Below are positions 29,402 through 49,565 of a stretch of DNA of 64,000 nt, one piece after another; position 1 is the first letter of the stretch; every line of letters begins with the position of its first letter. The position numbers were made by a program, and so were the translations under genes. The stretch is taken from positions 1-64,000 of the forward strand of contig CAMOPX010000003.1 of NCBI GenBank assembly GCA_946622415.1. Reading direction: 5' to 3'. The notes below the pieces were generated by a model. It saw only the letters and a program-made list of their open reading frames with translations. It had not been told where the DNA came from and ran no database searches. This DNA comes from an uncultured bacterium (GTDB lineage: Bacteria; Cyanobacteriota; Vampirovibrionia; Gastranaerophilales; Gastranaerophilaceae).

Positions 29402-32400
29402 ATGAATAATAATATATATTGCCGTTATGCTGGAACAACGAATAAAAAGAGCCGAGGGTTTTCAATTGCCTATGCAATTGTATCTCTTGTTGTAGTAGCT
29501 GTAGTTTTAGCAGGTTTAACCCCTGTGTTAACAAGAAAACTCCCTAATCTTTCCACTTCTTCCATTATTAAAAACCCTAAAGGCTGGTATGAATCTTTTA
29601 ATGCACCGACAGAAGGTGCAGTGATTTGTAAAAATTGTAAGCAAGCAGATGATGAATATAAGAAATGCCTTGAAGAACAGAAGAAAGATAAAAATAAGAT
29701 CTGCCCATATCCTGAAGAATTAATAAAAACTACAGTAACAATAAAACCCGATCATGAATGCTTTGGAAACCCCGCTTGCATACCGTATGTTATACCAAAA
29801 AAACAAAAGGAAGAAGAAAAGAAACCGAGTGTAATTCCTTTTGAACAATACTGTAAATCAAACGGAAAATGCAATCCTGACCCTGACATATTAAAAGATG
29901 TAAACGAAAAACTTTGTCATGATGCAAATTATACAATAACAGGAAAACTTAAAGACAAATTAAAGCCCTGCCCCTGTCCGAAAGGAAAATGTAAATTTAA
30001 ACCTCAATCAGGTATAACAAAATATGAAGTTTATGCAATAGGCGGCGGTGGTGGTTCAGGTTCTGCGGTTGCTTCTGATCTTGCAGATAAAGGAAATGCA
30101 TATAAAGAATCTGTTGTAGGTTCTGCCAAGAATCCGCTTCCCAAAGGTAACAATGATGATTTAACGAAAGTTCAAAACAATCGACGTAAAGACAGCACCC
30201 ATGTAACATATATAGATGAACATAAAATTCAAATAGCTAATTCATCATTATATCCGAAAGCCGATTTTATCGACCAAAACAGAATTGATACAAAAAACAA
30301 TCCGTATAGTCCTAATGCTTTCAAGGAAGACGGAAATGGTAAAACAAACTATGCTAATATACTTAATGACTCAAATACAGAAAAATGTGCAACAGGAATA
30401 ATTTATACAATTGGAAAAGAAAATAATAATTTCCATACCTATCCGACGGAAGACAGTAATTCTGTACTTGCAAAATCATCAACAAGACAGATTAAAAAAA
30501 TACTCGGAAATAAAACATATAAAATAGGTGAAAGAAATGTATACTATTATGACAGATATTATCTTTATACAAGATATTTAGGCGCTTATGCGTATAACCA
30601 AAATCCCGTATATCTTTTAATGCCCGAATGGGTAAAGGTCGATAATAACGATAAAAGGTATCCAAATGACGATGGTAGTATAGATAATGCTTATGACTTA
30701 ACTAATATAGAAGGAATAAAAGATGATATCGGTTGCAAAAAAAATGATTGCAATATTGCAGAATTTGATCCCATGAAATTTAATCCCATGAATCCTGATG
30801 CTAAGAATGCAAAACCTGTAACTGCAATTATGAACAACTACAATGCAATAGCAGGTGTTGTATGTTCGGGCGATGGTGGTGCAGGTGGAAATGCTTATTC
30901 TGTCAAAAATTCCGGCGACCCCTGTAAATGGATGTTGCCAAATGCTTGTAAATTTGATAAGGGCAAATTTGTTGAAGGTACAGGGTGGTCTAAATATACC
31001 GGAACAGCGTATACAAATCACCAGACGGCTAATGAAAAAGAGTGTGATGAATCATGCGGTTCAGAAAGTGCGCCTGGCAGTAATTCAGATGCTGAACAAT
31101 ATAAATATTGCGTAACCGGTAGCGAAACAACAAAAAAGACTGTTGAATACAAAAAAGACGGAAAGACAAAAACAAAAGAAGTCTGTGATAAAAAATATTG
31201 CGCATATAATGACTTATATTATAACAGGGTTTGCAAATATCAAGAATATAATGACAGATATGTATCTTGTAAGTGTGAAGACATTAAATTAAATCCCGCT
31301 TGCTCTGAAGCCAATGAAAATGATTGTACAACAGCAACACTTCATGTATCTATTGACCCTAATATTGCGTCTGATAGAAAGTTATTAAAAGATACAATAA
31401 CGCATAATCTTAATGCAGCAACTGATTTTAGTTTTGATTTTACATATATAGATGGAAATAGTAAATCTCTTACCTCAAAATCCGGATTTATGGGTATGAC
31501 GGGCGCAGACTGGGAAAGCGTAGTGGATGCAGCAACAAGAATCGATGCAACATTTGATACTATGTTGAATTCTGTTTTTGGTATTATTGAGGAAGGTAAT
31601 ACTAATGCTTCTATAGAATTTGATGTCGCAGATGCGGGCGGTACACCTGTATGTAAATATATAGGTACTTATTCACGTTCTGCGTATGGTGGGCCGTATG
31701 GTCATGGTATATGTGCGTATACTAAGCAAAATATTGCAAGAAAACGATTAATATCATTATATACTTCTCCTAAAGCCGATAATTATAGAACAGCAAAAGG
31801 AAACAATGGGGGCAATAAAGTCGAAAAAGGTGACGGTGTAAATAAAGTTGAAGCGAATGACGGCGGAAATGCTCATGATATAAGCATTTGTATTAGTATT
31901 AAGGATGATAGAAATAAAGATCATTGCGCAAATGCATCCGGCGGAGAAGGCGGAACGCGTGCTATTGTTGGCTCTGTGTGCACCGGACAGTCAATTAATG
32001 GTGTTAGAGGATCGTCAGGAGGAGTAAGCGGTGAAGGAAGTAGTTTTGCCAAAAGTCAAGAAAGTTCTGATGAGCTAATAAACTATGGTAGTACAAAAGT
32101 AAAAAATGCAGAATCAAAAGAAAAATATAAACTGTCTGAGGATTATTATAAGCAGAGCAGTAATAAAGATGATACCATTAAAGGGACACAACGCAAACCA
32201 GGACTTTATAACTATCGCTATATTTGGTATATGCCTTTTGTAACAAAGCATCTTATGTTTGGTTTAGCAGGTGAAGGCGGAGAAGAAGTTCATTCACTCG
32301 TAACTCTATCAGAAGGTCAAACACTGGATGTTACCCCCGGAAAAGGTGCGGTAAAAACCATTCACACATCGGGTGCAAATGGCGGAAATGGCGGACAATC

Positions 32401-32917
32401 CGAAGTTAGAAACGATGATGCAAAAGTAAAAATTATTGCCCATGGCGGAAAGGGCGGATTGGGCAGCCAAAAAACCGATGAATATGTGTTGTGTCATATT
32501 TCTGATTTACAAAATCAAAATCCTAATCTTCCGTGCTACTATAAGAACGAAGTTGATAACAGTTTTAAATCAACCCATGCAAGAGAAAAAGACGGTAAAT
32601 TTGTCGGAATATTAGCGACGCAGCCTAAAATCAGTACAATCGTAAAATCTATTAAAATGAGCGCTAATTTAAAAGATGGCACCCCCGGAATGGGCGCTAT
32701 GGGCTTTGGAACAAAATCTGTTTCGGATGTAATTTGTGAAAACCGATATGTTGAAAAATGGGACAAGATAGAAGGAACAGATACCCCAACTGCTCAATTA
32801 TTATCATCCGGCAAAACATTGTATAATGTATGCAGAGGTAATTCAAGAATTAAATACATAATTCCAAACGGTTCTAAATATACTGCAGGAACCGGTGCGG
32901 TGATAATTATTTGGTAA
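29402..32917 (+). CDS. Giant prepilin-like glycine- and cysteine-rich surface protein A
   Basis: A 1171-aa protein with CGGAGGAAG before ATG. A basic leader K-K-S-R-G19 is followed by F20-S-I-A-Y-A-I-V and a roughly 22-residue hydrophobic helix, the type IV prepilin signal; residue +5 is Tyr, not Glu. A Cys-rich head follows (C-K-N-C, C-F-G-N-P-A-C, C-P-C-P-K-G-K-C at about 75-200). Y-E-V-Y-A-I-G-G-G-G-G-S-G (about 205-217) opens and A-G-T-G-A-V-I-I-I-W closes (C-terminus) what looks like a phage-tail-type glycine-rich domain with a large insertion. G-G-N-G-G, G-G-K-G-G-L-G repeats fill the last 230 residues. It is a paralogue of 46173-49565 and probably a pilus-tip or pseudopilus adhesin. 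Confidence 0.65.
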   Translation: MNNNIYCRYAGTTNKKSRGFSIAYAIVSLVVVAVVLAGLTPVLTRKLPNLSTSSIIKNPKGWYESFNAPTEGAVICKNCKQADDEYKKCLEEQKKDKNKICPYPEELIKTTVTIKPDHECFGNPACIPYVIPKKQKEEEKKPSVIPFEQYCKSNGKCNPDPDILKDVNEKLCHDANYTITGKLKDKLKPCPCPKGKCKFKPQSGITKYEVYAIGGGGGSGSAVASDLADKGNAYKESVVGSAKNPLPKGNNDDLTKVQNNRRKDSTHVTYIDEHKIQIANSSLYPKADFIDQNRIDTKNNPYSPNAFKEDGNGKTNYANILNDSNTEKCATGIIYTIGKENNNFHTYPTEDSNSVLAKSSTRQIKKILGNKTYKIGERNVYYYDRYYLYTRYLGAYAYNQNPVYLLMPEWVKVDNNDKRYPNDDGSIDNAYDLTNIEGIKDDIGCKKNDCNIAEFDPMKFNPMNPDAKNAKPVTAIMNNYNAIAGVVCSGDGGAGGNAYSVKNSGDPCKWMLPNACKFDKGKFVEGTGWSKYTGTAYTNHQTANEKECDESCGSESAPGSNSDAEQYKYCVTGSETTKKTVEYKKDGKTKTKEVCDKKYCAYNDLYYNRVCKYQEYNDRYVSCKCEDIKLNPACSEANENDCTTATLHVSIDPNIASDRKLLKDTITHNLNAATDFSFDFTYIDGNSKSLTSKSGFMGMTGADWESVVDAATRIDATFDTMLNSVFGIIEEGNTNASIEFDVADAGGTPVCKYIGTYSRSAYGGPYGHGICAYTKQNIARKRLISLYTSPKADNYRTAKGNNGGNKVEKGDGVNKVEANDGGNAHDISICISIKDDRNKDHCANASGGEGGTRAIVGSVCTGQSINGVRGSSGGVSGEGSSFAKSQESSDELINYGSTKVKNAESKEKYKLSEDYYKQSSNKDDTIKGTQRKPGLYNYRYIWYMPFVTKHLMFGLAGEGGEEVHSLVTLSEGQTLDVTPGKGAVKTIHTSGANGGNGGQSEVRNDDAKVKIIAHGGKGGLGSQKTDEYVLCHISDLQNQNPNLPCYYKNEVDNSFKSTHAREKDGKFVGILATQPKISTIVKSIKMSANLKDGTPGMGAMGFGTKSVSDVICENRYVEKWDKIEGTDTPTAQLLSSGKTLYNVCRGNSRIKYIIPNGSKYTAGTGAVIIIW

Positions 32918-32941
32918 GAATCTTTTTATAATACTAATCAA

Positions 32942-32968
32942 GACCCTGAAAATTCAGGGTCTTTTATA
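32942..32968 (+). terminator. Terminator of giant protein A gene
   Basis: Arms AGACCCTGAA / TTCAGGGTCT almost abut and are followed by TTTATATTTATT, 25 bases after the stop. Confidence 0.8.
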
Positions 32969-34278: not shown

Positions 34279-35628
34279 CTAAATATTCACGTTTTTCATC
34301 ATACTTTTTAAAGTATCCAGAGTTGTTTTCATGGAAACAATATCTGTTGTTTTTTGTTGAAGAAAAGCGTTGATTTTTGGCATTAATTCTATTGCAACGT
34401 CGAGTTTAGGGTTTGTTCCCATTTGGTACATACCTACGTCAATAAGGTCTTTATTGTCTCTATATAATGCCATTAAATTTCTCATTTTTCCGGCGGCTTC
34501 TTTATGTTCAGGGTCGGCAATTGCGCTCATTAACCTCGAAATTGAACCCAGAGCATCGATTGCAGGATAGTGATTTTGCTCGGCAACTTTTCTTGATAAG
34601 AATATGTGACCATCTACAATACCTCTTACGATATCGACAATAGGATCTGTTATATCATCACCTTCCATCAAAACCGTGTATAATGCCGTGATTGAACCTT
34701 TGTCGGAGTTTCCGGTACGTTCCAGTGCTCTTTGTAACCATGAAAAAATAGAAGGCGGATAACCTTTCATTGTTGGCGGTTCACCTAGTGACAACCCTAC
34801 TTCACGCCCCGCCATAGCACAACGTGTCACTGTATCCGTCATAAGAAATACTTTTTTTCCTTGATCTCTGAAATATTCGCAAACCGTTGTTGCGGCAAGC
34901 AGACATTTCATTCTTATTAGAGGAGGCAAATCCCCTGTTGCACAAACAACAACGGATTTTTTCATACCTTCTTCTTTGAGTGAATCCACAATAAATTCTT
35001 TTACTTCACGTCCGCGTTCTCCAATCAGTGCAACAACATTTACGTCTGCATCTGAGTTTCTTGCAATCATACCTAATAATGTTGATTTTCCGACACCTGA
35101 CCCTGCAAACAATCCCATACGTTGTCCTGTTCCCATTGTAAGAAGTCCATCGATTACTCTGACACCTGTCGAAATTTGCTCCGTGATAATGGGACGGGAA
35201 AACGGGTCGGGGATTGTGCCGTTGATATTCATATATTTTGCCCCTTCGACATTGAGAGGCTTATTATCCATAGGTTCACCCAAAGGATTAATTAATCTGC
35301 CAAGTAGAAAATCACCGACAGGAAGCAAAATAGGGGCGCCTGTTGTTTCAACCAGAGAACCCTGTCCTATACCTTCCCCGTCATATAAAAGCAAAAGCTG
35401 TGCAACATCACCCTTAAAAGCCTGAACTTCGGCCGCTTTTCTTTCGCCTGTGTAGGTTTGAATGTAGCATAAATCTCCTATTTTTAACCCCGGAAGTTTA
35501 ACTTCTACAGTTAAACCCAAAAGCTTTGATACAACACCTTTGTATTTATATAAATCAATATTATCCAGTGTATTGTATGTTTTTTCTTTTAGTTTTTGCA
35601 GTTTGTATTCTATTTCTTCATTCATCAT
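34279..35628 (-). CDS. fliI: Flagellar export ATPase FliI
   Basis: A 449-aa F1-type ATPase. Walker A is G-S-G-V-G-K-S-T (about 172-179), with L-I-G-E-R-G-R-E-V-K-E-F (about 200-211) and the catalytic-site D-T-V-T-R region. G-E-P-P-T-M-K-G-Y-P-P-S-I-F in place of the F1 beta signature identifies the export-ATPase family. It unloads and energises substrates at the flagellar export gate. It lies on the strand opposite the fliE-flhA block, 2.2 kb away. The start M-M-N-E-E has TATAAT four bases before the first and seven before the second ATG. Confidence 0.9.
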   Translation of the reverse strand: MMNEEIEYKLQKLKEKTYNTLDNIDLYKYKGVVSKLLGLTVEVKLPGLKIGDLCYIQTYTGERKAAEVQAFKGDVAQLLLLYDGEGIGQGSLVETTGAPILLPVGDFLLGRLINPLGEPMDNKPLNVEGAKYMNINGTIPDPFSRPIITEQISTGVRVIDGLLTMGTGQRMGLFAGSGVGKSTLLGMIARNSDADVNVVALIGERGREVKEFIVDSLKEEGMKKSVVVCATGDLPPLIRMKCLLAATTVCEYFRDQGKKVFLMTDTVTRCAMAGREVGLSLGEPPTMKGYPPSIFSWLQRALERTGNSDKGSITALYTVLMEGDDITDPIVDIVRGIVDGHIFLSRKVAEQNHYPAIDALGSISRLMSAIADPEHKEAAGKMRNLMALYRDNKDLIDVGMYQMGTNPKLDVAIELMPKINAFLQQKTTDIVSMKTTLDTLKSMMKNVNI

Positions 35629-35726
35629 CTAAATTATAGCAGATTACATTAACCGTGTCATTTTGCTTTTGATATATAATATATAACTTTTTTCATGTTA
35701 AAATCAAAAACAAAAAGGAGAAAATT

Positions 35727-36236
35727 ATGTTGAATCAAAATGTAGAAAAAGCAATTAACAATCAAATCAATGCGGAACTTTATTCCGAATATTTGTATTT
35801 ATCAATGAGTGCATATTTAAAAAGCATTAATATGAATGGATGTGCGGCTTGGATGAATATACAAGCTCAAGAAGAAAGAGCACATGCTATGGGTATGTTT
35901 GATTATATTATAAGACGCGGCGGAAAAGTTGTTCTTGAAGCTATCGAAAAACCTCAAACGGAATGGAAGGACGTTGTTGATGTATTTTCTTCGGCTCTAA
36001 AACATGAAGAACTTGTTACATCTAAAATAAATGCTCTTGCAAACGTTGCGCAAGAAAACTCAGACAGAGCAACATCTCTTTTCTTAAATTGGTACATAAC
36101 GGAACAAGTTGAAGAAGAAGAAAATTTCAACGATTTGGTTTCTCAATTAAATATGCTGAAAAATGATTCATCAGCTTTATATGCTCTTGATAAAGAATTG
36201 GGCGCAAGACAGTTTGTAGCACCGATTATTAAGTAA
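35727..36236 (+). CDS. ftnA: Ferritin, iron-storage
   Basis: A 169-aa four-helix ferritin. Intact ferroxidase residues are visible: E in N-A-E-L-Y-S-E-Y-L-Y, the E-E-R-A-H-A-M motif (about 48-54), and T-E-Q-V-E-E-E-E (about 125-132). It oxidises Fe(II) and stores it as mineral in a 24-mer cage. AAAGGAG lies before ATG. It is a monocistronic unit ended by the hairpin at 36252. Compare the degenerate paralogue at 17341. Confidence 0.93.
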   Translation: MLNQNVEKAINNQINAELYSEYLYLSMSAYLKSINMNGCAAWMNIQAQEERAHAMGMFDYIIRRGGKVVLEAIEKPQTEWKDVVDVFSSALKHEELVTSKINALANVAQENSDRATSLFLNWYITEQVEEEENFNDLVSQLNMLKNDSSALYALDKELGARQFVAPIIK

Positions 36237-36251
36237 TTTTATTTTTTATTT

Positions 36252-36290
36252 ATTGCTGCTTTGGTTAAAATCGCCGAAGCAGCAATTTTT
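36252..36290 (+). terminator. Ferritin terminator
   Basis: Arms ATTGCTGCTT / AAGCAGCAAT (plus partial TGG/CCG pairing) are followed by TTTTTATG, 15 bases after the stop. Confidence 0.85.
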
Positions 36291-36430
36291 ATGCAAAAAA
36301 TAAATATTAATTTTTGTAAAGTTTATAAATTTTTTTGTCAAAAAATAAATTAAAAAATTTTTTATATAAAGTATATAAAACTTTTAGGATGGATTGTTTT
36401 TTTAACTAGCGATATAAGAGGAAAGTAAAA

Positions 36431-37636
36431 ATGCAAATTAACAACACGGATCTGTTTTTAAGCGGAAAAAATTTAAAAACTAATGACACAAGTTCAACTG
36501 CAAAAGAGTCTTCTGCGAATAATAAGTATGAAGAAGATATAATACAAACCTACCGTGATTCGGGTTATGAAATTTATGACAGAGAAGATAAAAATAGAGA
36601 TGCAATTGTAGACCATGACAAATACATAGGTATAAACGGTATGTCTGATTGGAAAGAATGCGGTACCAGTGGTGTAACTTTAGACCTCAATAAGTATCGT
36701 GATTTATACGGATATATGATTGATGAAAATAACGATGAATACGGATATATGAATACCGTTGCCCAAGAAATAGAAAAAGATCTTGCAAATTATTTTGAAA
36801 TTAATCCCTATGAAGAAGGCGGAAAAGAAGATTTAAATTCCGTTATGAAACAAATTTTAAAACACAGATTGTGCTACGATGAACCTCAAAATTTAGATAC
36901 TGATGCATATAATGCTTATGTAGCTGAAACATTAGCAAAAATATCCAACAATGATACATTGGATGATGACTATATATATTTAGACGGTATTGAAGTTGGT
37001 TTTGATCCTTTAGAAGGCCAAACAGAAGATGCATCTCAAACAGCAAGCAATAAAACAGAAAGCGGATTGGAAAAAAGAACGGTAGATGATGATAGCGCAG
37101 CAAAAGTATTGGCTTTAGCAGAAAGTTATGAAGGTATGGAATCTGAAGGCGATAAAACAAGACCATTTTTCGAACGTATTAATTATTCGGGAAGTAACGA
37201 AGGAACACCTTGGTGTGCCGCATTTGCAAGTTACGTTACTTTAGAATCAGGTGCTGATGTTGCAGATTGGTTTGAAGATATGAATGGTTCAGCAAGCTGT
37301 GCACAGATATATGAACAAGCATATGCAAATAATGCAATAGTTGTTAATCCTAATGATGTTCAACCCGGTGATTTAGTTATTTATGATTATTATCACGAAG
37401 ATACGGATGGTCCTGATGGTCCTGATGGAAATAATTTCTACTATGAAACCAATGGAATAATGGACCATGTTGGTATTGTTACAGATATGAACCCTGACGG
37501 TGCTTTTAGTACTATAGAAGGTAATACAGGCTATTCAGAAGGTTCTAAACATGGTAAAGTTGGCAGACATGATTATACATTAGGTCAAATGCAAGCACAA
37601 GGAACACGCGTATATTTCGTCAGAGTCTTAAAATAA
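36431..37636 (+). CDS. CHAP-type cysteine peptidase / amidase
   Basis: A 401-aa protein. The C-terminal 180 residues form a CHAP-like domain: catalytic Cys in T-P-W-C-A-A-F-A-S-Y-V (about 258-268), His in M-D-H-V-G-I-V-T-D (about 345-353) and the polar third residue in I-E-G-N-T-G. Q-P-G-D-L-V-I-Y-D lies between, as in the family. The N-terminal 200 residues are Asp/Asn-rich with EF-hand-like D-R-E-D-K-N-R-D spacing and may bind calcium. No signal peptide is seen. It lies upstream of the transglycosylase and flagellar genes, so wall remodelling for flagellum assembly is plausible. GAGGAAAG lies before ATG. Confidence 0.75.
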   Translation: MQINNTDLFLSGKNLKTNDTSSTAKESSANNKYEEDIIQTYRDSGYEIYDREDKNRDAIVDHDKYIGINGMSDWKECGTSGVTLDLNKYRDLYGYMIDENNDEYGYMNTVAQEIEKDLANYFEINPYEEGGKEDLNSVMKQILKHRLCYDEPQNLDTDAYNAYVAETLAKISNNDTLDDDYIYLDGIEVGFDPLEGQTEDASQTASNKTESGLEKRTVDDDSAAKVLALAESYEGMESEGDKTRPFFERINYSGSNEGTPWCAAFASYVTLESGADVADWFEDMNGSASCAQIYEQAYANNAIVVNPNDVQPGDLVIYDYYHEDTDGPDGPDGNNFYYETNGIMDHVGIVTDMNPDGAFSTIEGNTGYSEGSKHGKVGRHDYTLGQMQAQGTRVYFVRVLK

Positions 37637-37661
37637 AACCAACAACCTAAAATATATAAAA

Positions 37662-37702
37662 AAGAACAGACTAAATTTTTATAAAATGTCTGTTCTTTTT
37701 GT
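37662..37702 (+). terminator. Terminator after the CHAP gene
   Basis: Perfect arms AAGAACAGAC / GTCTGTTCTT lie across a 16-base loop, followed by TTTGTTTT. Confidence 0.8.
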
Positions 37703-37835
37703 TTTAATTTTGGACTTTTAAATTAGACTTTTTTAATAAAAACATTAAATTACTAATATAAATGTACGATTTATTCCCGTTTTATTTCAGATTTCAATTT
37801 TATATCCGAAAATAAGAACGGGGGAAAAGGGTAAA

Positions 37836-38525
37836 ATGTTTAGTCCGCAAATTCAAAATTATATAAATTCTTCATCAAATGCAAATGCTTATTCAAGAGT
37901 GGAAGAAATTAACCGTTATATTAATTCCTTCTATCCTGTTGAAGAAACACAAACCTCTATGACAAGAGGATTTGATGATATTTTATCCGAATCAAAAATA
38001 GAACAAAAGGCACTTGATAGAGGTGTATTTGAAATTGATATTCCGCCGAATATTAAAAAATCATCAGTCTCTCCTCTGCCATTTGGTTCTTTATCAAAGG
38101 GTGTTGAAAAAATAAGTTCCAAAACTACAAGTCCCGTAAAATCAAATTCAAAAGCACAAATTCTTGATTATATAAAAGAAGTAAGTAATAACTACGGTGT
38201 AGAAGAGAAACTTGTTAAGGCTTTAATAAAACAAGAATCAGGATTCAATCCGAATGCAATATCAAAAGCAGGTGCTATGGGTCTAATGCAATTAATGCCT
38301 GCAACCGCAAAATCTTTAGGAGTAAAAAACGCAATGAATCCTAAAGAAAACATTGAAGGCGGAGTTAAATATTTAAAACAAATGTTGAACAGATATAACG
38401 GAAACAAAATTTTAGCACTTGCCGCTTATAATGCAGGTCCCGGTGCCGTAGACAAATATTCGGGCGTTCCCCCGTATCCTGAAACACAAAACTATGTTAA
38501 AGCAATACTAAAAAATTATCTGTAG
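37836..38525 (+). CDS. Lytic transglycosylase (SLT family)
   Basis: A 229-aa protein. The first 100 residues are low complexity; residues 110-229 are a complete SLT domain with catalytic Glu in L-I-K-Q-E-S-G-F-N-P-N-A and the landmarks A-M-G-L-M-Q-L-M-P-A-T-A, N-I-x-x-G-x-x-Y-L and A-L-A-A-Y-N-A-G-P-G-A-V. It cleaves peptidoglycan with 1,6-anhydro product formation. No signal peptide is evident, so export could use the flagellar apparatus encoded just downstream (fliE begins 18 bases after its stop), as for FlgJ-like enzymes. Confidence 0.88.
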   Translation: MFSPQIQNYINSSSNANAYSRVEEINRYINSFYPVEETQTSMTRGFDDILSESKIEQKALDRGVFEIDIPPNIKKSSVSPLPFGSLSKGVEKISSKTTSPVKSNSKAQILDYIKEVSNNYGVEEKLVKALIKQESGFNPNAISKAGAMGLMQLMPATAKSLGVKNAMNPKENIEGGVKYLKQMLNRYNGNKILALAAYNAGPGAVDKYSGVPPYPETQNYVKAILKNYL

Positions 38526-38542
38526 TCAAAAAGGAATAAAAT

Positions 38543-38854
38543 ATGAATAATAAAATCGGACAAGTAAATTTCTTCAGAATGGAAAAAGTTCAGCCAATGG
38601 AAGCAGGTATTTCAATTAATGCATCCGATACAAAGGTGGGAAGTTTTAAAGATGTTGTTGTTGATATGATGAATGAAATGAACGAAACAACAAATAAACC
38701 CCAAGAATTGCTGGCTGATGCAATGCAAGGAAAAGCCGATATCCATGATGTTATGGCTGCGGTTGCAAAGAGTGAATTAACGGTTCAAGCAGCTGCTACC
38801 GTTACGGGAAAGATACTTCAAACGTATGAAAAAATCATGCAAATAACAATTTAG
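38543..38854 (+). CDS. fliE: Flagellar hook-basal body protein FliE
   Basis: A 103-aa protein of standard size. The C-terminal half has the family pattern D-I-H-D-V-M-A-A-V-A-K-S-E-L-T-V-Q-A-A-A-T-V-T-G-K-I (written with variants) and ends Q-T-Y-E-K-I-M-Q-I. FliE links the MS-ring to the rod. AAAGGAAT lies before ATG. It is second in the run SLT-fliE-fliF-x-fliH-flhA. Confidence 0.88.
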   Translation: MNNKIGQVNFFRMEKVQPMEAGISINASDTKVGSFKDVVVDMMNEMNETTNKPQELLADAMQGKADIHDVMAAVAKSELTVQAAATVTGKILQTYEKIMQITI

Positions 38855-38911
38855 TATTAACTTTAAAATCGAATAATAGTACAATTTTTATTGTAAGAAA
38901 ATTGCCAAAAT

Positions 38912-40660
38912 ATGGAAAAATTTGACCTAAAACAAATAACTGAAAATAAGCCTCTTTTTTATACAATAATATCTTGCGCTTTAATGTTTGCAATAGTTGT
39001 TGTATTAATGCTTTTTGTTTTGACGAGTGTTCATACAACTAAAAGCAGTGCAGGTATTTCATCCGGTACCAACCAACAGGTAATGAAGGAATTTAACAAT
39101 AGCGACAACGAGCCTTTAGGAGAGGATGTATCGTTATTTACAACGGATAATATCGGAAAAGCTCTCGAGGTACAAGCCCTGCTTTCAAGAAACGGTATTG
39201 AAACAAAGAAAGAAACAAACGGGTCAAAAATTGAAATCAAACTGGATAAAAAAAGAACTAAATCACAAAGAGATAGAGCCATATTAGCAATTGTCGGAAG
39301 CGGTCTTATAGATGAACATACGGGACTTGAGATATTTGATAAAGGCGATTTCACATCTACAAAAGACGATAAAAAAATAAGACTAATAAGAGCAACAAAC
39401 GGCGAATTATCAAGATTAATCAGAAAAATAGACGGCATTGAAAATGCACAAGTATTTATTTCTATACCCGAACAGGCATTTTTCCAATCTGAGCAAAAGC
39501 CGATTACAGCAACAGTGCAAATTACAATTGCGTCAGGTAAAAAGCTTGATAATGTAAAAGTAAAAGCGATATCAAACTTGCTTTTAGGCGCCGTGAACGG
39601 ATTAGAAGCCGATAATATTTCAATAACAGATACAAACGGAACGGTATATAATTCAATCATTGGCGCATCTGATGATGCTATTGCAAAAATCGAAGAAAAT
39701 GATAAATATATGCAATCCAAAGTTAATGCCCAATTGGATAAATTATTGGGCAAGGGTAATTATATTGCAACCGTTTCAACTTTTCTTACTCAATCTCCTG
39801 TTGAAAAAACAAGTATATTATATGACCCCAAACAAAAAACTGCCGTATCCGAACAGGAATTTAAAGAGAATTTAGGTGACAGCCACAATGATTCTACAAG
39901 TTCAGGAATGAGCCCTGTTAGTGTTCAGGTGCCCGCAGGTGTTCAATCGGGAATACAAAACGGTGCATCATCTCAAGACAGAAAATATTCACGCAGTGCA
40001 ACGGAAACTCAATACGGTGTTTCAAAAACACAGGTTAATGAATATATGGATGCAGGTATTATAGAAGAAATTTCTATTGCTGTTTCGATAAACGAAAATG
40101 TTATTCCTGCAAATATGAGTTTATTTGAATTAAAATCGCTCATTGCATCTGCCGCAAGTCCTAAGGTTAAGCCCGAAAACGTTTCAATAGCCTATGTTGA
40201 ATCAAACAGTCCCGTATTTGCACCCGATATGGAAAACGAGCTTCCGAAGCCTGAAGAATCAGGTAATCCTTGGTGGGTTGTTGGTGCATTATTATTAATC
40301 GGTTTAATTTTAGGATTAAGCCATATTGGTAAAAAAGTAAAAGATGCTAACAAAAAGCAACAGGAAGAACTCGAATATTTAAGAGAAGTTGCGGCAACTC
40401 AAGAACAACAACTTAAAGATGTTACAACACAAGCAAACAGCCTTATTGCTCAACAAGAACAAATGGCACAAAATATGCTTGAACAAAAGAACGAATATAC
40501 GCTTGCAATTGAACAGGCAAAAAATATGGCAACCGCACAGATTCAAAACAATAACAGAGGAAATCTGGCAGATGCAATTGATGAATTGGAGTCCGATTTT
40601 AATTCAATGGATGAAAATGAAGCTATCGAAAAGTTAAAGAATTGGATTGAAAGTGCATAA
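38912..40660 (+). CDS. fliF: Flagellar MS-ring protein FliF
   Basis: A 582-aa protein. One membrane helix lies near residues 15-38 and a second near 452-472, with periplasmic ring-building domains between (L-S-R-L-I-R-K-I-D-G-I-E-N-A-Q-V-F-I-S-I-P is the YscJ/FliF signature, broken by substitutions). The cytoplasmic tail is a long coiled coil, and its last residues N-E-A-I-E-K-L-K-N-W-I-E-S-A resemble the FliG-binding peptide. It anchors the basal body and export gate in the inner membrane. Confidence 0.9.
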   Translation: MEKFDLKQITENKPLFYTIISCALMFAIVVVLMLFVLTSVHTTKSSAGISSGTNQQVMKEFNNSDNEPLGEDVSLFTTDNIGKALEVQALLSRNGIETKKETNGSKIEIKLDKKRTKSQRDRAILAIVGSGLIDEHTGLEIFDKGDFTSTKDDKKIRLIRATNGELSRLIRKIDGIENAQVFISIPEQAFFQSEQKPITATVQITIASGKKLDNVKVKAISNLLLGAVNGLEADNISITDTNGTVYNSIIGASDDAIAKIEENDKYMQSKVNAQLDKLLGKGNYIATVSTFLTQSPVEKTSILYDPKQKTAVSEQEFKENLGDSHNDSTSSGMSPVSVQVPAGVQSGIQNGASSQDRKYSRSATETQYGVSKTQVNEYMDAGIIEEISIAVSINENVIPANMSLFELKSLIASAASPKVKPENVSIAYVESNSPVFAPDMENELPKPEESGNPWWVVGALLLIGLILGLSHIGKKVKDANKKQQEELEYLREVAATQEQQLKDVTTQANSLIAQQEQMAQNMLEQKNEYTLAIEQAKNMATAQIQNNNRGNLADAIDELESDFNSMDENEAIEKLKNWIESA

Positions 40661-40682
40661 TTAGAACAAACAACAAAGGAAA

Positions 40683-41639
40683 ATGGCTGATAATAACGAT
40701 ATAAAAAATTTTAACTCCGACGCTTTTGCCTCTGATTTATCTTCACAGGCTCGTCAAGTGGTGCCTTCCGATATATCAAAAAATGAAGTCGATTTTATAG
40801 TTGATATTATTTATCGTTTTTGTAAAATGGCAGGCGACGCTCTTGTCGGAGAAGAAAATTCAAAACTAAATTCAAATTCTGCCAGTCTTGTTGTACAGTT
40901 TATCGGTGAGTGGATTTTTCATAAATCAATAGACGTAATTAGAGCGGGAATTGCTAATGACCTGAGAGAAGGAATTTTACAAAAAGTTGCTTTTACGGTA
41001 TTTGAAATTGCAAAAAAAGCAATAGAAAGTGATATACCGCAAGACCAGCTTATTGCGCTAGTTGAGGTTCAGGTTAAAAAAAGTTTCGAAAAGGCGATAG
41101 CTGAACTTGAACAAAAAGGTGTATTGTCGGAAGAACTTGCAAAGAATACTCTGTCACAATCAAATATTGATAACATGGCAGTTGAACAAGCTGCGGACGA
41201 TGTTAAAATGCAAACCGAATGCATGTCTGATGATAAAATCGTTAAGCTTGCTTCTTTGGCAGTATTGATAAAGAGTTTTCCGAGCGAAAAAATTAAAAAT
41301 ATAGTACAGGGATTTAATAAACCGGAAAAAGATGTTTTGTTAAAATATCTCAAGATTCCGGATTTGGAAGAGAAAATGGATTTAGATGCAACAATTAAAT
41401 GTTTTGAAGATTTGAAAACAGTTTTGCCTGAAACAATAGTAATCAGTTATGATAGAGCATATAAGAAATTGTATAAAATTGTTAAAAATTCGTCTAAAGA
41501 ACAAATTTCTACTATTATAGATAATGAAAGACCTGCAATAAAAGAGTTTGTTTCTTCATGCTATACGCAAAAAAGAAAAAAACTTCCGGCATATATTGCA
41601 GATGCCGTATCTAAATATATAGAAGAAAATGTTTCATGA
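40683..41639 (+). CDS. Unrecognised protein at the fliG position
   Basis: A 318-aa, mainly helical, soluble protein. It sits exactly where fliG is expected (22 bases after fliF, overlapping fliH by four bases), but the FliG hallmarks (an N-terminal A-A-I-L-L-L-S-L-G-type helix and a C-terminal charged torque helix with the D-D-R-x-I-Q pattern) are not visible. A weak repeat-like segment near 190-230 (L-I-K-S-F-P-S-E-K-I-K-N-I-V) could be an ARM-type unit as in the FliG middle domain. It may be a very diverged FliG or an unrelated switch or export adaptor. Confidence 0.5.
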   Translation: MADNNDIKNFNSDAFASDLSSQARQVVPSDISKNEVDFIVDIIYRFCKMAGDALVGEENSKLNSNSASLVVQFIGEWIFHKSIDVIRAGIANDLREGILQKVAFTVFEIAKKAIESDIPQDQLIALVEVQVKKSFEKAIAELEQKGVLSEELAKNTLSQSNIDNMAVEQAADDVKMQTECMSDDKIVKLASLAVLIKSFPSEKIKNIVQGFNKPEKDVLLKYLKIPDLEEKMDLDATIKCFEDLKTVLPETIVISYDRAYKKLYKIVKNSSKEQISTIIDNERPAIKEFVSSCYTQKRKKLPAYIADAVSKYIEENVS

Positions 41640-42445
41640 TAATAAGAGGTAAAAATTCCGCTTCAAAAAAACAGTCAAATTCTCAAACATCTTCAAAACC
41701 CAAAAAAGGGAATGTAATAAAAAAAGAAGATGCGATTCTTGATGTTGAAAAGGCTAAAAATTCAAACAATCCTGAAGATATTAATATCAGTTCTTTAAGT
41801 CTTGATGATGAATTATCATCTGCTGACAGTTTTGAAAAAATAGATATTTCATCAATTGAATTTAAAGAAAGAATTGAAAGACGCAGAGGAGATAGACGCC
41901 GCGGTTACAGAAGAATTGATGAAAGGTCGCTCGTTACTCGTGCACAACAGGAGGCTCATTCAATTAAAGAATTGGCTGCAAGGGAAGGTTATCAGAACGG
42001 TTTATTAAAAGCACAACAAGATATTGACGATGTTAAAAAATCTCTTTGCGAGTTTTTGGATATGAAAGATGAAATGTATAAAGAATTTTATCCCCATGTT
42101 ATGGAATTATCCATGGAAATTGCAAAAAAAATCATTAAAAAAGAAGTAGAAACTTCGAATGATGTTCTGAAAAATATCGTTATGTCTGTTATGGATGAAA
42201 TAAATTCCGATACTCAAAAAGTCGTTATAAAAGTAAATTCCGGTGATTTGGAATTTGCAGAAGCGTCGTTGCCTGATTTAATTAAGGCAAAAAACAATTC
42301 GGTCAAGGTTTCTTTTGCTTCAGACGATTCAATCGAAAAGGGAAGCTGTCTTGTTGCGGCAAACAACGGTGTAATTGATGCAAACTTTAAAACGCAGCTT
42401 GCTGTTTTACAAAGCGCTTTCGGAATATACAAAGGAGGGCTATAG
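41636..42445 (+). CDS. fliH: Flagellar export stator-like protein FliH
   Basis: A 269-aa protein. The first 90 residues are polar and probably disordered, followed by a basic patch (E-R-R-R-G-D-R-R-R-G-Y-R-R), a coiled coil (Q-Q-E-A-H-S-I-K-E-L-A-A-R-E-G-Y), and a C-terminal FliH/V-ATPase-E-like domain (E-I-A-K-K-I-I-K-K-E-V-E, then a beta-rich end). FliH binds FliI and docks it at the export gate. ATG overlaps the previous gene by four bases; the last codons encode AAGGAGG, the ribosome site for flhA. Confidence 0.8.
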   Translation: MIIRGKNSASKKQSNSQTSSKPKKGNVIKKEDAILDVEKAKNSNNPEDINISSLSLDDELSSADSFEKIDISSIEFKERIERRRGDRRRGYRRIDERSLVTRAQQEAHSIKELAAREGYQNGLLKAQQDIDDVKKSLCEFLDMKDEMYKEFYPHVMELSMEIAKKIIKKEVETSNDVLKNIVMSVMDEINSDTQKVVIKVNSGDLEFAEASLPDLIKAKNNSVKVSFASDDSIEKGSCLVAANNGVIDANFKTQLAVLQSAFGIYKGGL

Positions 42446-44524
42446 TTGGCTGCTCCTAAGCAAAATACGAATATAATTTCCGAATTAGCTTTAGCGGTTT
42501 TCGTTATCCTTTTAATCGGTATTTTGCTGTTTGAAGTTCCGACTTGGATGATAAATATGTCAATCGGGTTCAATATAACATTGGGTATTGTGTTGTTGAT
42601 GATATCCTTGTATGTTAATAAACCGCTTGAATTGGCGGCATTTCCTTCAATTTTACTTATCGGTACCGTATTCAGACTGGTTCTTTCAATAGCATCCACC
42701 CGTTTGATTTTAGCAAAAGGTGATGCAGGAGAAGTTGTTTCTGCTTTTGGTGAATTTGTTTCAGGCGGAAGTATGATAGTCGGCATAGTCATATTTTTGA
42801 TTATTACAGTCGTTCAATTTATGGTTATCACAAAAGGTGCCGAACGTATTGCGGAAGTATCCGCGCGTTTTGCACTGGACGCTATGCCTGGTAAACAAAT
42901 GACAATTGATGCCGATTTTAATGCGGGTCTTATATCTCCTGATGAAGCAGTCAGAAGACGTGAAGATTTACAAAGAGAATCAAGTTTATACGGTTCCATG
43001 GATGGTGCAATGAAATTCGTAAAAGGTGATACTATTGCAGGTATCATTATTACAATAATAAATATTGTGGGCGGATTGATAATGGGTATCTTGGTTAATG
43101 GCATGAGTCCCGAAGATGCTGTCGGAAAATATACAACACTTACAATTGGTGACGGTTTGTGTTCCCAAGTTCCTTCGCTTTTAATGTCTATTTCATCAGG
43201 TATTGTTATGTCGCGTGCTACAGGTTCCGGTGTTGCACTGGGTTCTGATCTTGCAATGCAAATTTTATCCAAACCGCCGAGCTTATTTCTCGCTTCAGGG
43301 TTTTTGATATTATGCGCACTAACTTCTCCTCTGACACATTTACCGTGGTATCCTTTTGTTATTTTTGCACTTATTTTAATAGGTGCAGCTTTTTCTGTTC
43401 TTGTTAATCAGGATGTTCAACAACAATTAGGGCAATTAGACGCAGTTAAACAAAATATGCAGGATTTGGTTAACCCTAATAAAATGTATGAAAGATTAGG
43501 TGTGGATGTTTTATCTTTGCAAGTTGGTGCGGCGTTACTTGTTATTGCAGACCCTGAACAAGACGGACAATTGTTGGCAAAAATTGCCGCATTAAGACAA
43601 CGTGTCACAGATGACCTTGGTTATATTATTCCGAATATAAGAATTATGGATTCTTCCGCAATAGGTGATAATGAATATTTAATATCCATTCGTGGAAACC
43701 CTGTTGCAACGGGTACGGTTTACCCCGGAAAATTAATGGTTATTGCCGATCAGTATCAGGCGCTCGGAAAACCACTGCCTGATAATGCTATTGCAAGTAT
43801 TGAACCTACATTTCAGGCTCAAGCTTATTGGCTAAATCCTCAACATATAAGCAAAAATGATAGAATCCAAGCAATTGATGCTGTTGATGTTATTGTTACG
43901 CACTTGCAGGAGTGTGTTCGTAAATATGTAGATGAAGTCATGACAAAAACGGATGTCTTGAAATTGATGGAGCTTGTTAAATCGCAAGACCCGACTCTTG
44001 TTAATGACCTTGTACCGACAATAATTTCTACTTCGGATTTAAGAAAAATTTTCGTTAATTTGATTAGAGAAAAAGTTTCAATTAAAGATATCATATTTAT
44101 TTTTGAAAGATTATGCGACTATGCTCGTTTTTCAAAAGAACCGGATATTTTATCAGAAAGACTTCGTGCCGCATTAGGCCGACAAATATGTCTTTCAAAT
44201 TCCAATAAAGATAAAGTATTGTACGCACTGACTCTTTCTTCCGACTGGGAAAAGACTCTTGATGACAGTTGCCAAAGAACAGAATTGGGTACAATGTTTT
44301 TACTTAATCCGATGCAGGTTCAAGAGCTTATTGAAACAACTGCAAATACTCTTATGCGTGCTCAAAGTGCTGTTGGGGTTCAGCCTGTGATATTGTGTTC
44401 TCCGAGAATCAGACTCCCCTTATATCAAATGCTTGAACGTCATATACCGACTATTGTTGTAATTTCATATTCTGAATTAATAACCGATATCAGAGTTGAA
44501 GCGATTGATACAATCGGAGAATAA
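42446..44524 (+). CDS. flhA: Flagellar export gate protein FlhA
   Basis: A 692-aa protein, normal length. A TTG start is used directly after the fliH stop, with AAGGAGG seven bases upstream. Eight hydrophobic helices fall in the first 320 residues; the FHIPEP-family signature R-I-A-E-V-S-A-R-F-A-L-D-A-M-P-G-K-Q-M lies near 133-150 (written here in part). The cytoplasmic C-terminal half (about 340-692) binds chaperone-substrate complexes. It forms the nonameric gate ring. It ends the rightward flagellar block. Confidence 0.93.
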   Translation: MAAPKQNTNIISELALAVFVILLIGILLFEVPTWMINMSIGFNITLGIVLLMISLYVNKPLELAAFPSILLIGTVFRLVLSIASTRLILAKGDAGEVVSAFGEFVSGGSMIVGIVIFLIITVVQFMVITKGAERIAEVSARFALDAMPGKQMTIDADFNAGLISPDEAVRRREDLQRESSLYGSMDGAMKFVKGDTIAGIIITIINIVGGLIMGILVNGMSPEDAVGKYTTLTIGDGLCSQVPSLLMSISSGIVMSRATGSGVALGSDLAMQILSKPPSLFLASGFLILCALTSPLTHLPWYPFVIFALILIGAAFSVLVNQDVQQQLGQLDAVKQNMQDLVNPNKMYERLGVDVLSLQVGAALLVIADPEQDGQLLAKIAALRQRVTDDLGYIIPNIRIMDSSAIGDNEYLISIRGNPVATGTVYPGKLMVIADQYQALGKPLPDNAIASIEPTFQAQAYWLNPQHISKNDRIQAIDAVDVIVTHLQECVRKYVDEVMTKTDVLKLMELVKSQDPTLVNDLVPTIISTSDLRKIFVNLIREKVSIKDIIFIFERLCDYARFSKEPDILSERLRAALGRQICLSNSNKDKVLYALTLSSDWEKTLDDSCQRTELGTMFLLNPMQVQELIETTANTLMRAQSAVGVQPVILCSPRIRLPLYQMLERHIPTIVVISYSELITDIRVEAIDTIGE

Positions 44525-46081: not shown

Positions 46082-46087
46082 AAGATT

Positions 46088-46093
46088 ATGCTA
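46088..46093 (-). promoter_or_regulatory. -10 box for a leaderless transcript
   Basis: On the minus strand TAGCAT ends six bases before ATG 46081; it matches TAnnnT only. Confidence 0.3.
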
Positions 46094-46172
46094 CCATAAA
46101 ATAGTATGTTTGTTATATTTATTGAAATAAAAAACATTGATATAATAAAAATCGGTATATAAGGAATTTAAT

Positions 46173-49100
46173 ATGGAAAAGTTTAATTTGTTTGGTATTA
46201 AAAAAGCTTCAGAAATTTATAATTGCAAGAAGAAAGGTTTTTCAATAGCATATGCCATAGTCGCACTTGTTGTCGTTGCGATTGCTGTTGCAGGTTTAAC
46301 CCCTGTATTAACAAGAAAACTTCCCAATCTTTCAACTTCTTCCATTATCAAAAATCCGAAAGGTTGGTATGAGTCTTTTAATGCACCAAAAGAGGGCGCA
46401 TTTTATTGTAATAATTGTATGGAATATGATGACTGTTTAGCTAAAAACAAAGAACATCCCGAAAGATGCACAAATAAACCAACAAAAGACGATTGGGATC
46501 ATAAAAATGATATTCAAATTATAAAGGATGATAAAGACCCATGTTACGGAAATCCCGCTTGTATTCCTTATATAAAACCACCGGAAAAAGAAGGCGAACC
46601 AAACCCATTAATAATTGCTTTTGAACAATACTGCAAATCAAACGGAAAATGCGGACCGGGACCCCGTGAAAAAGAATGTGGTTTAAAAAATAAGCCATGT
46701 CCATGTGACGGTGAATGTAAATTTAAACCTGCAAAAGGTGTTACAAAATACGAAGTATTTGCAATAGGCGGCGGTGGTGCTGCAGGTTCTGCGGTGGCGG
46801 CAAATCCTTATCTTCCTAAGTACGGACCAACATACAGAGATTCTGTTACAGGTAAAGCTAAATATGAAAATGATTTACCAATAGGTGCTAATATACCGGT
46901 TGACAATCTTAATATTCCTGATGGTGAAAAAATCAATGCTAATTTTATAGATACAAATAAGAAAAATACGAAATACACAGGTAAAATCGAGTTACCCGAT
47001 ATAGCAAATATCAGTGATAATTGCGCAAGCAACATATTTTATACAATAGGCGCCGAACCAGGAGAACACGACGAAGCTTTTCATACTTATCCGACAGAAG
47101 ACAATAATGCAAAACTTGCTGTTGTATCTTCAAAACAGGTAATGAGAATTTTAAAAGAAAAACATAAATATAACCATAATCCGCAATACAGAATAGGAAA
47201 TAAAATTGTTGATTATAAAAACAGATACTATCTGTATACAAAGTATTTAGGTGCGTATTCGTATAATCAAAATCCTGAATATGAATCAATGCCTGAATGG
47301 TTAAATGTAGACGGTAAAGAAGCAAAATATAGAGACGGATTATTTGAAGATGATATCTATAGCACTTTGAACTCTTTGTCTTATATTTATCGTTCAAGTG
47401 ATAACTGTAAAAATTACGTAGGTAATGGTAATTGCAAAATCGGTAAAAACGGACTTGCGATAAAAACAAATGATATAGGCGGACCGATATTGAGTAAATA
47501 TTCCGATGCTGCAGCAATAGCATGTTCAGGTGATGCCGGAAAAGGACAAGCAATAACATATCATAATACTAAAACCATGTGTCCTTGGATGATAACAGGG
47601 ATTAATTCCTGTCCAAAGGATAAGGTGACATTTACTACAAGCAAATTGTCTGATTATGTAAATGGTACAAGTTCAACATGTGATGGTAAAAATAATATCG
47701 ATCCCCCTGATTGTCTAAATGAGTTAGACAAATTTGAACATAAACATACAAGGAAAAGAAATGGAGTAGTTGTAAAAACCTGGTATACTTATACATATAC
47801 TTGCACTTATGATGAGCTTCTTTCAAATAGAGTATGCTTGTATAAAACGATAACAGCTCCATATGTTAGTTGTATGTGCGAACCAGAAAAAATTCAAGAT
47901 GATTCTTGCAAAGATAATAAAGATTTAAACGAAAGATGCTATCCGCATTATGCTTATTTTTATTATAGCAGTGCAAGTAATCAATCAGATAGAGACTATG
48001 TCAGAAATACAATGGATGCGGATTCCAATAAAGATGGTGGAGATAGAACCGGTAACGAGGTTGAAGAAAACTCGAATGGTGGTAGTCATTCAACAGGTTT
48101 TGCAGATGATACTGATAATGGTAATTCTAGCAATAGTCACCAAGTAAGTGACGCTGCTGATGACAATTGGTCAGAATATCAAGGGGATTATAATGCTACA
48201 GCAAGGGGCGGTGACAAAATGCTTGGCAAAGCCGATAGACACCCCGATCTGTCGTATAGATTTAAAGTTAGAGGCGGCGGCACACCGAAGTGTGATCGCA
48301 TAAATGATTATACTCTTCATGCTGACGGTGGTGCAGGCGGAAAAGGAATTTGTGTATATGTAAATAAAAAAATTGAACAATTAATTGAAAACGGTGAACA
48401 AGTTATATTGTCTGCAGAATCCAATGTTGAACCCGGCGAATTAAATAATAATAAATCAACCTCTGCAGTTCATAGAAATTCAACGTTGAATTCATATGAC
48501 GGCGCTACATGTGCTGCAGAAGGTTGGTATTCAAAAGAAGCAACCGCGTGCATAAAACACAAACATAAAAAATATGATTCAGGTTCTAATTGTTGTCGTA
48601 CTGCGCATGGTGCCGAAATGGGTCATCCGGGATGCGTTGACCCTTGCGCTAAGAACCACAAGGGAAACAATGGTGCCGCAGGCAGTTCTGCGGGCGGAAG
48701 CGGATGCGGTGATGGCGGTAATTTTGCAACATCTGCTATGTTAAATATTCAAAATGCCCAAAAAGGTCAAGGAGCTAGCGGATATGAAGCCGATAACAGC
48801 AGTCATATTGTAAACGGTAATATGCAAGGTGTTCTCAGGGCTCCCGGAAGATACAACTATCGCTATGTTTGGTATATGCCTTTTGTCACAAAACATCTTA
48901 TGTTTGGTTTAGCGGGTGAAGGCGGAGAAGAAGTTCATACCCTCATAACTTTAACGGAAAACCAATCTTTAACTGTTAAACCGGGAGCAGCCGCTTTAAA
49001 AACGAATTATACAACGGGTAAAAATGGCGGAAATGGCGGTGAATCAAGAGTTGAAAGCGATGAAGCAAAAGTAAAAATCATTGCCCATGGCGGAAAAGGC

Positions 49101-49565
49101 GGACTAGGCAGCCAAAAGTCCGATGAATATGTGCTTTGTCATAAATCCGATGCACAAAAAGATAGCGCTGATTATCCTTGTTATTATGAAAACCCAACTA
49201 AAAACAACTTTAAAAAGACTCACATATTTAAAGACGGAAAATTTTTAGGAATTCAAGCTACTCAACCAAAGATGAGCACACTTGTTAAGTCAATCAAAAT
49301 GAGTGTAAATCTTAAAAAAGGAGCTCCGGGAATTGGCGCTATGGGATATGGTACGGAATCAGTTTCGGATTTTGTATGTGAAAAACGTCACGTTGATAAA
49401 TGGGATGAAATATACGGAAAACCCGTTATGACGAAAGCGGATGTAATTGCATCGGATGATCAACACAATAATGAACCATGTAACGGAAATTCAAAAATCA
49501 AATACATTATTCCGAATGGTGCCGCTTATTCATCAGGAACCGGTGCTGTTATAATCTTGTGGTAA
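46173..49565 (+). CDS. Giant prepilin-like glycine- and cysteine-rich surface protein B
   Basis: A 1130-aa paralogue of 29402-32917. The leader N-C-K-K-K-G22 precedes F23-S-I-A-Y-A-I-V-A-L and a hydrophobic helix; +5 is Tyr27. The next stretch, A-G-L-T-P-V-L-T-R-K-L-P-N-L and S-I-I-K-N-P-K-G-W-Y-E-S-F, is nearly identical to protein A. Then come Cys pairs (C-N-N-C, C-Y-G-N-P-A-C-I-P-Y, C-P-C-D-G-E-C), the glycine-rich opening Y-E-V-F-A-I-G-G-G-G (about 193) and closing block (about 894-1130) ending G-T-G-A-V-I-I-L-W. The middle third (Asn/Asp/Gly-rich, about 560-830) is divergent from A. It is followed by a terminator. A surface or tip role is inferred. Confidence 0.65.
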   Translation: MEKFNLFGIKKASEIYNCKKKGFSIAYAIVALVVVAIAVAGLTPVLTRKLPNLSTSSIIKNPKGWYESFNAPKEGAFYCNNCMEYDDCLAKNKEHPERCTNKPTKDDWDHKNDIQIIKDDKDPCYGNPACIPYIKPPEKEGEPNPLIIAFEQYCKSNGKCGPGPREKECGLKNKPCPCDGECKFKPAKGVTKYEVFAIGGGGAAGSAVAANPYLPKYGPTYRDSVTGKAKYENDLPIGANIPVDNLNIPDGEKINANFIDTNKKNTKYTGKIELPDIANISDNCASNIFYTIGAEPGEHDEAFHTYPTEDNNAKLAVVSSKQVMRILKEKHKYNHNPQYRIGNKIVDYKNRYYLYTKYLGAYSYNQNPEYESMPEWLNVDGKEAKYRDGLFEDDIYSTLNSLSYIYRSSDNCKNYVGNGNCKIGKNGLAIKTNDIGGPILSKYSDAAAIACSGDAGKGQAITYHNTKTMCPWMITGINSCPKDKVTFTTSKLSDYVNGTSSTCDGKNNIDPPDCLNELDKFEHKHTRKRNGVVVKTWYTYTYTCTYDELLSNRVCLYKTITAPYVSCMCEPEKIQDDSCKDNKDLNERCYPHYAYFYYSSASNQSDRDYVRNTMDADSNKDGGDRTGNEVEENSNGGSHSTGFADDTDNGNSSNSHQVSDAADDNWSEYQGDYNATARGGDKMLGKADRHPDLSYRFKVRGGGTPKCDRINDYTLHADGGAGGKGICVYVNKKIEQLIENGEQVILSAESNVEPGELNNNKSTSAVHRNSTLNSYDGATCAAEGWYSKEATACIKHKHKKYDSGSNCCRTAHGAEMGHPGCVDPCAKNHKGNNGAAGSSAGGSGCGDGGNFATSAMLNIQNAQKGQGASGYEADNSSHIVNGNMQGVLRAPGRYNYRYVWYMPFVTKHLMFGLAGEGGEEVHTLITLTENQSLTVKPGAAALKTNYTTGKNGGNGGESRVESDEAKVKIIAHGGKGGLGSQKSDEYVLCHKSDAQKDSADYPCYYENPTKNNFKKTHIFKDGKFLGIQATQPKMSTLVKSIKMSVNLKKGAPGIGAMGYGTESVSDFVCEKRHVDKWDEIYGKPVMTKADVIASDDQHNNEPCNGNSKIKYIIPNGAAYSSGTGAVIILW

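Follow-up and report, generated by a model that had tools for sequence, protein, structure and literature searches.

Two giant modular prepilins with a putative phage-fibre-type glycine-rich head in an uncultured Gastranaerophilales bacterium

Results

The DNA analysed here (the window) comprises 64,000 nt of contig 3 (C3) of a metagenome-assembled genome (MAG) of 1.88 Mb that is 91.9% complete. It carries two intact open reading frames (ORFs) for giant modular prepilins, named giant 1 and giant 2, whose heads appear to adopt a split phage-fibre-type fold. The two proteins share 45–47% identity, and a search with a giant found them as the sole matches at E ≤ 0.01 in the MAG. Each protein starts with a basic leader, followed by G|FSIAYAIV and a single hydrophobic helix. 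Next come a stretch rich in Cys, a first strand that bears GGGG, and a long middle, and the glycine-rich C-terminal part closes with GTGAVII(I/L)W. Their parts are as follows.

29402..32917, + strand: giant modular prepilin 1, intact ORF, 1171 aa
29402..29551, + strand: prepilin N-terminus of giant 1 (residues 1–50), with basic leader, G|FSIAY (Tyr, not Glu, at position 5) and hydrophobic helix
29552..29986, + strand: Cys-rich head of giant 1 (residues 51–195), 12 Cys counting C197
29987..30067, + strand: first strand and GGGGG motif of the glycine-rich domain of giant 1 (residues 196–222)
30068..32191, + strand: middle region of giant 1 (residues 223–930), fast-changing and Cys-bearing with conserved glycines, read as inflated distal loops
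32192..32914, + strand: C-terminal part of the glycine-rich domain of giant 1 (residues 931–1171), ending GTGAVIIIW
46173..49565, + strand: giant modular prepilin 2, intact ORF, 1130 aa
46173..46322, + strand: prepilin N-terminus of giant 2 (residues 1–50), G|FSIAY
46713..46793, + strand: first strand and GGGG motif of giant 2 (about residues 181–207)
46794..48836, + strand: middle region of giant 2 (about residues 208–888), 32% identity to the giant 1 middle over aligned residues
48837..49562, + strand: C-terminal part of the glycine-rich domain of giant 2 (about residues 889–1130), 67% identity to giant 1, ending GTGAVIILW

The leader, G|F and hydrophobic tract of a class III signal are present in both giants, with Tyr in place of Glu5. 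Glu5 is found in all 11 relatives with a full N-terminus. The N-terminal hydrophobic segment is the only one in each giant that reaches 1.6 in a 19-residue Kyte-Doolittle window. In Pfam single-protein scans, PF07963 (N_methyl) was matched neither by giants 1 and 2 nor by the giant of a related locus, L089. Family scans of the single giants gave nothing over cut-off. Giant 2 had a weak match to DUF930 (E 0.28), and weak HpsB pseudopilin N-termini were seen (E 0.085 and 0.019). Single-protein scans missed the motif, and the prepilin assignment comes from family comparison. Positions 4–52 of the profile of A4, a recognised prepilin family of the same locus, align with positions 10–60 of the giant profile (95.6% probability, E 1.3e-8), which supports the type IV prepilin N-terminus of the original prediction. 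The A4 protein of L089 matches N_methyl at 25 bits (cut-off 21.2), and that of the window genome matches the N-terminus of the L089 giant (41.7% over 36 residues, E 9.5e-5). Four T2SSE-type ATPase domains (PilB/PilT/GspE kind) pass the cut-off in the window genome. A family search of the MAG did not find Peptidase_A24; because this family is present in 26 of 28 genus genomes, the missing prepilin peptidase is likely a gap in the MAG. For a termite-gut relative, pilA, B, C, T and D were reported together with flagellar genes (PMC5877343).

A glycine-rich fold with end strands about 950 residues apart had been predicted, and the distances agree. YEVYAIGGGGG (207–217) and the final GTGAVIIIW of giant 1 are 949 residues apart, and YEVFAIGGGG and GTGAVIILW of giant 2 are 923 apart. 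In the 14 rows of the giant alignment (A5), 665–949 residues separate the first GGGG from the last strand. Glycine clusters were counted as at least four G in eight residues, leaving out the first 60 residues, against 300 shuffles per protein. Giant 1 has nine clusters and giant 2 has seven, equalled in 0/300 and 1/300 shuffles, respectively. Twelve relatives all lie above the shuffle mean; for five of them (L092, L096, L098, L099 and L101) the count was equalled in 1–23 of 300 shuffles.

Profile comparison used sub-alignments with borders set by hand. When strand 1 was set before the C-terminal 240 residues, the match to the small uninterrupted prepilin of the locus improved from E 1.3e-7 to 8.7e-10, and the reversed order, as a control, gave no gain (E 2.5e-7). 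A head-only profile gave a smaller gain (1e-7 to 4.1e-9; reversed 1.9e-7), with strand 1 outside the printed aligned stretch. In the fold comparison, the low-confidence predicted model of a window giant matched the fibre of cyanophage Pam3 over model range 142..1171. The predicted fold of the small locus prepilin is that of the distal part of Pam3 gp24 (TNF-like/glycine-rich), with the domain uninterrupted. With a giant as Foldseek query, the best E against the PDB was 0.12, and one match in the viral library fell under 0.001, a Siphoviridae glycine-rich protein (E 4.5e-4). S16 gp38, which the Pam3 paper names as a relative of that fibre (PMC9608196), was not among the matches listed in the fold comparisons. 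In sequence searches of the PDB, giant 1 (phmmer) and the A5 profile gave weak or no matches, and the profile of the small-prepilin family A3 gave weak pilin N-termini only. The window giants matched no glycine-rich family in single-protein scans. The window genome yielded nothing for PF21722 (Gly_rich_2) at E ≤ 1, and the small prepilin of L089 reached 22.6 bits against a curated cut-off of 24.3. The strand-1 gain and the Pam3 match support a giant head with a split TNF-like plus glycine-rich fold of phage-fibre type, as far as profiles and models can tell, and the predicted fold of the small partner is well supported. Contacts between the two glycine-rich parts are not directly readable in the model; a prediction that separates them, named beforehand as counter-evidence, did not arise, and the Pam3 match extends across the range given above.

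The predicted Cys-rich head is present in both window giants, with 12 Cys within 147 residues in giant 1 and within 129 in giant 2. The same region has 0–2 Cys in 12 relatives; it is therefore a trait of the window pair and not of the family.

The interval between the end strands had been taken for one enormous insertion. This is not borne out, because conserved glycines recur inside the roughly 950 residues. Glycines kept in at least 13 of the 14 rows are 214–217, 220 and those from 928 on, plus 394, 492, 493, 727, 747, 763, 764, 767, 867 and 870. On the strength of this conservation, we interpret the middle as several loops that have expanded between the glycine motifs. A stem with conserved glycines would then bear large distal lobes that contain Cys and change fast. 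Five regions were compared in 12 pairs, and the middle was the least conserved in 11 of them, the exception being giant 2 and L089 (head 16%, middle 17%). Identity in the middle versus the C-terminal part is 32% vs 67% for the window pair, 59% vs 85% for L095/L096 and 56% vs 84% for L089/L093. For L095/L096, the middle has a dN of 0.347 (dS 0.95) and the C-terminal part one of 0.074 (dS 0.67); their neighbouring genes have a dN of 0.099 (A4) and 0.055 (fifth gene). Positive selection in the middle was considered and rejected, dN/dS being below 1 in all four pairs computed, with several dS over 1.5. A diversity-generating retroelement was likewise set aside, with no PF00078 match at E ≤ 0.001 in the window MAG.

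Searched with giant 1, 58 genomes yielded 14 with matches, counting the window genome; all belong to a single genus. For G005 and G021 the N-terminus alone was matched. Length and a C-terminal pattern served to select the initial family, which excluded L028, L029 and L030; the A1 and A2 alignments also omit the truncated L022. The profile of 12 members (A1), with matches listed down to about E 7e-6, was run against the 28 genus genomes. Besides the window genome, 13 genomes matched strongly (G011 in two pieces), and smaller giant pieces were found in G017, G014 and G006. Among the matches listed, the remaining genomes had short N-terminal matches to other prepilins only, or none (G026). Complete members have 927–1171 aa, and the named contigs with giants (13 loci) are all from Candidatus Gastranaerophilales. 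Some contigs end inside the giant gene (G011:C5/C18, G017:C14/C33, G014:C106 and G020:C57), which could mean repeats or strain mixture.

Locus ORFs were called by longest frame and prepilins by pattern. Eight of the 13 named loci place the giant third among four consecutive prepilin-like genes, with a divergent fifth gene ahead of them. The order is the divergent gene (~302–353 aa), A3 (~196–229 aa), A4 (~315–357 aa), the giant, and a last gene (~184–224 aa). L101 has all five genes, with A4 placed behind the giant; contig ends truncate L092, L096 and L100, and L098 shows a giant without the other genes. The giant is thus beside or among other prepilins in 12 of 13 loci, and the upstream prepilin ORF overlaps it by 7 nt in nine (L089–L091, L093–L097 and L100). 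The window genome carries the other four genes in the same order at C3:73.7–77.4 kb with no giant between them, and its two giants lie elsewhere on the contig. BLAST best matches of these four genes to counterparts in four loci range from E 4e-11 to 6e-47. G010 is similar, with A4 and giant on separate contigs. Matches of the A4 profile over at least 148 positions, a floor set after the results were seen, occur in 16 of 28 genomes; some A4 match, often short and N-terminal, occurs in 25. All 16 belong to the 17 genomes with a giant or giant piece, and in the seventeenth (G020) the contig starts inside the giant. Therefore, the giant and the locus go together. In the window species, the two copies outside the locus, the loss of Glu5 and the Cys-rich neck would be derived changes.

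Beyond this family, the A3 profile at E ≤ 1e-8 found 12 of 146 genomes of the order, in four genera of one family. The regions around the six A3 matches outside the window genus were read. In g30 (L117, L118 and L122) and g2 (L119) the locus has three adjoining glycine-rich prepilins, of 626/317/688, 623/317/676, 626/320/631 and 519/303/809 aa, respectively; the first g2 ORF was apparently called from an internal start. In g6, L120 has three (599/877/482 aa) and L121 a single one (465 aa). These four g6 proteins all pass the Gly_rich_2 cut-off, and in PHROGs the three of L120 hit families of phage tail proteins (E 7e-7 to 0.004). Five proteins scanned from L117 and L119 stay below the Gly_rich_2 cut-off, and one stretch of the 626 aa gene reaches 25.0 bits in the genome search. 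Among 78 genomes sampled from the family, 13 have a Gly_rich_2 match over cut-off. Pfam recognises the module on three neighbouring prepilins in L120, and for g30 and g2 it was recognised by eye; it is clear for two proteins of the window genus and weak for the third. That third candidate, A4 (~315 aa), was rejected as a glycine-rich head, with profile probabilities of 3.8–3.9% against the A3 head and 50% against the giant C-terminus.

Same-genus genomes hold many other large prepilin-type proteins. Three pass the Pfam cut-off for Gly_rich_2 (L084:1324-3828, L073:2703-5540 and L083:1880-3646) and were not recognised as giant-locus members; that of L083 also passes the cut-off for N_methyl. In G005, short prepilins seemingly carry a Collar domain of phage tails at L028:155-631 (−), L074:1430-1786 (−) and L075:1273-1686 (−), which would make it the second module of phage-tail type on pilins. 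The Collar domain was recognised by Pfam in L028 (PF07484, E 6.2e-14) and by eye in L074 and L075. Large prepilins of 811–986 aa carry two to four Lcl_C-type (PF07603) stretches (L029:14498-16933, L069:3361-6321 and L076:1731-4235), over cut-off in L029 and L069 and under it in L076. Further large prepilins of 383–1082 aa occur in G002, G003, G009, G017, G018 and G025. Prepilin N-terminal coding sequences often lie near contig ends (for example G018:C9:76-195, G022:C16:68-178, G020:C46:41-178 and G005:C8:404-520), as if repeated 5' parts of paralogues broke the assembly; a recombining surface-protein repertoire is possible.

The 33–46 kb stretch between the copies holds flagellar and other genes and does not belong to the system. 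At 34279–44524 are a FliI-type ATPase, FliF, FliH and FHIPEP/FlhA, and also ferritin, a CHAP protein and an SLT transglycosylase. A MetH-type methionine synthase (891 aa, against a model of 1182 positions) and a bifunctional homocysteine methyltransferase/MTHFR follow each other at 24455–28952.

Discussion

Both proteins are best read as giant modular minor pilins with a phage-fibre-type TNF-like/glycine-rich head, and we consider it reasonably probable that they act as tip adhesins. We infer export, cleavage, filament assembly, tip position and binding as follows. The giants would be held in the inner membrane by the N-terminal helix and cleaved behind the Gly by a prepilin peptidase, and their assembly into a filament would fall to a type IV pilus machine. 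The head may be a TNF-like plus glycine-rich domain resembling the distal end of Pam3 gp24, with glycine-rich loops inflated to hundreds of residues in the giants and uninterrupted in the small locus prepilin. At the pilus tip, by analogy, it could bind host, diet or microbial surfaces in the gut. The binding role is suggested by the phage fibre, with its conserved stem and variable tip, and by the modular pilins of Streptococcus sanguinis. The tip position is suggested by the size of the head and the PilABC tip model of S. sanguinis (PMC9934059). In the window pair alone, the absence of Glu5, a mark of capping subunits (PMC10191384), points the same way.

A bolder extension is offered tentatively. 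The three adjoining TNF-like/glycine-rich prepilins might form a hetero-trimeric tip head, the counterpart of the phage homotrimer. A pilus tip would thereby be turned into a phage-fibre-like receptor-binding head, and loops enlarged in different members in each genus would provide new binding lobes.

The giants could instead be tip pseudopilins of a type II-like secretion or DNA-uptake apparatus, with the head contacting cargo or secretin in the periplasm. This is rather unlikely, even though the five-minor-prepilin locus resembles GspHIJK/ComG-type sets, sub-cut-off matches to GspH, GspG, GspI and ComG models occur in the N-terminal parts of L089 locus proteins, and the window giants lack Glu5 as GspK does (PMC9934059). 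The predicted head fold is that of a fibre tip, and the rapid change in the middle suggests outside contacts. To our knowledge, known pseudopilins are far smaller than a head of more than 1000 residues.

We also doubt that the giants are membrane-anchored surface proteins that never enter a filament, the prepilin helix being a mere anchor and the head capturing polysaccharide or protein near the cell. In the window genome and L098 the giant stands apart from the prepilin locus, which would suit such a protein, as would the many other large prepilin-type proteins of the genus. The close association with prepilins in 12 of 13 loci, overlapping in nine, speaks against it. It is improbable that the glycine clusters arose independently and that the phage resemblance is compositional. 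The failure of the window proteins alone to match any glycine-rich family and the low confidence of the giant model would fit this. Recent capture of phage or prophage tail-fibre genes, suggested by the fold, is largely refuted by the prepilin N-terminus and conserved chromosomal locus, by 41 pattern matches in viral contigs of which none was confirmed as a relative, and by the lack of any tblastn match at E ≤ 0.01 for two head pieces (small head and giant C-terminus) in 50,697 phage records.

TNF-like, glycine-rich (TG) domains also occur in the animal receptor kinases ALK and LTK, where they bind ligands. If the reading as giant tip pilins is right, gut-bacterial pilins also carry a fold with which phages recognise their hosts and these kinases bind ligands. 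It would give the uncultured Gastranaerophilales a candidate means of gut attachment. The modules grafted onto pilins would gain another, and the giants would be a natural case of very large insertions tolerated in a glycine-rich fold.

Among known systems, PilHIJK/GspHIJK with PilY1 likewise form a small minor-prepilin set from one locus, with a capping subunit that lacks Glu5 as both window giants do (PMC10191384, PMC9934059). Unlike theirs, the heads of the giant locus are glycine-rich. The NCBIfam equivalogs of GspH/I/J/K gave only sub-cut-off N-terminal matches in the window giants and L089 locus proteins, and the PilC/PilY1 C-terminal beta-propeller family had none at E ≤ 1 in Pfam for the window giants. 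The PilB and PilC of S. sanguinis resemble the giants as minor pilins of one operon with a pilin N-terminus, a grafted bulky binding module and unusual size; their modules, however, are vWA or lectin, and the processed proteins have 50.5 and 52.8 kDa (PMC8179133; PMC9934059). The architecture had been said to look new for pilins. Modular pilins as such are already known, with 264 architectures in over 1,200 proteins (PMC8179133), and the most extreme multi-domain one named there has 860 residues (PMC8179133; PMC9934059). What may be new is the head: no record of it on pilins came up in searches of an open-access library, supplements including Dataset S1 of PMC8179133 being outside the scope, and the main text of that paper holds neither 'glycine' nor 'collar'. 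In profile comparison the giants do join a non-pilus domain to a pilin N-terminus, the mark of a modular pilin, and a census by single-protein database matches in the style of PMC8179133 would miss them. The best structural match is Pam3 gp24 (7ypx, 7yfw; PMC9608196). This phage homotrimer has a chaperone, no prepilin helix, and a glycine-rich domain of 125 residues against about 975, with six loops bearing paired glycine motifs. It shares with the predicted giant head a TNF-like domain leading into a glycine-rich domain, a conserved stem, and a variable tip for which receptor recognition has been proposed (PMC9608196).
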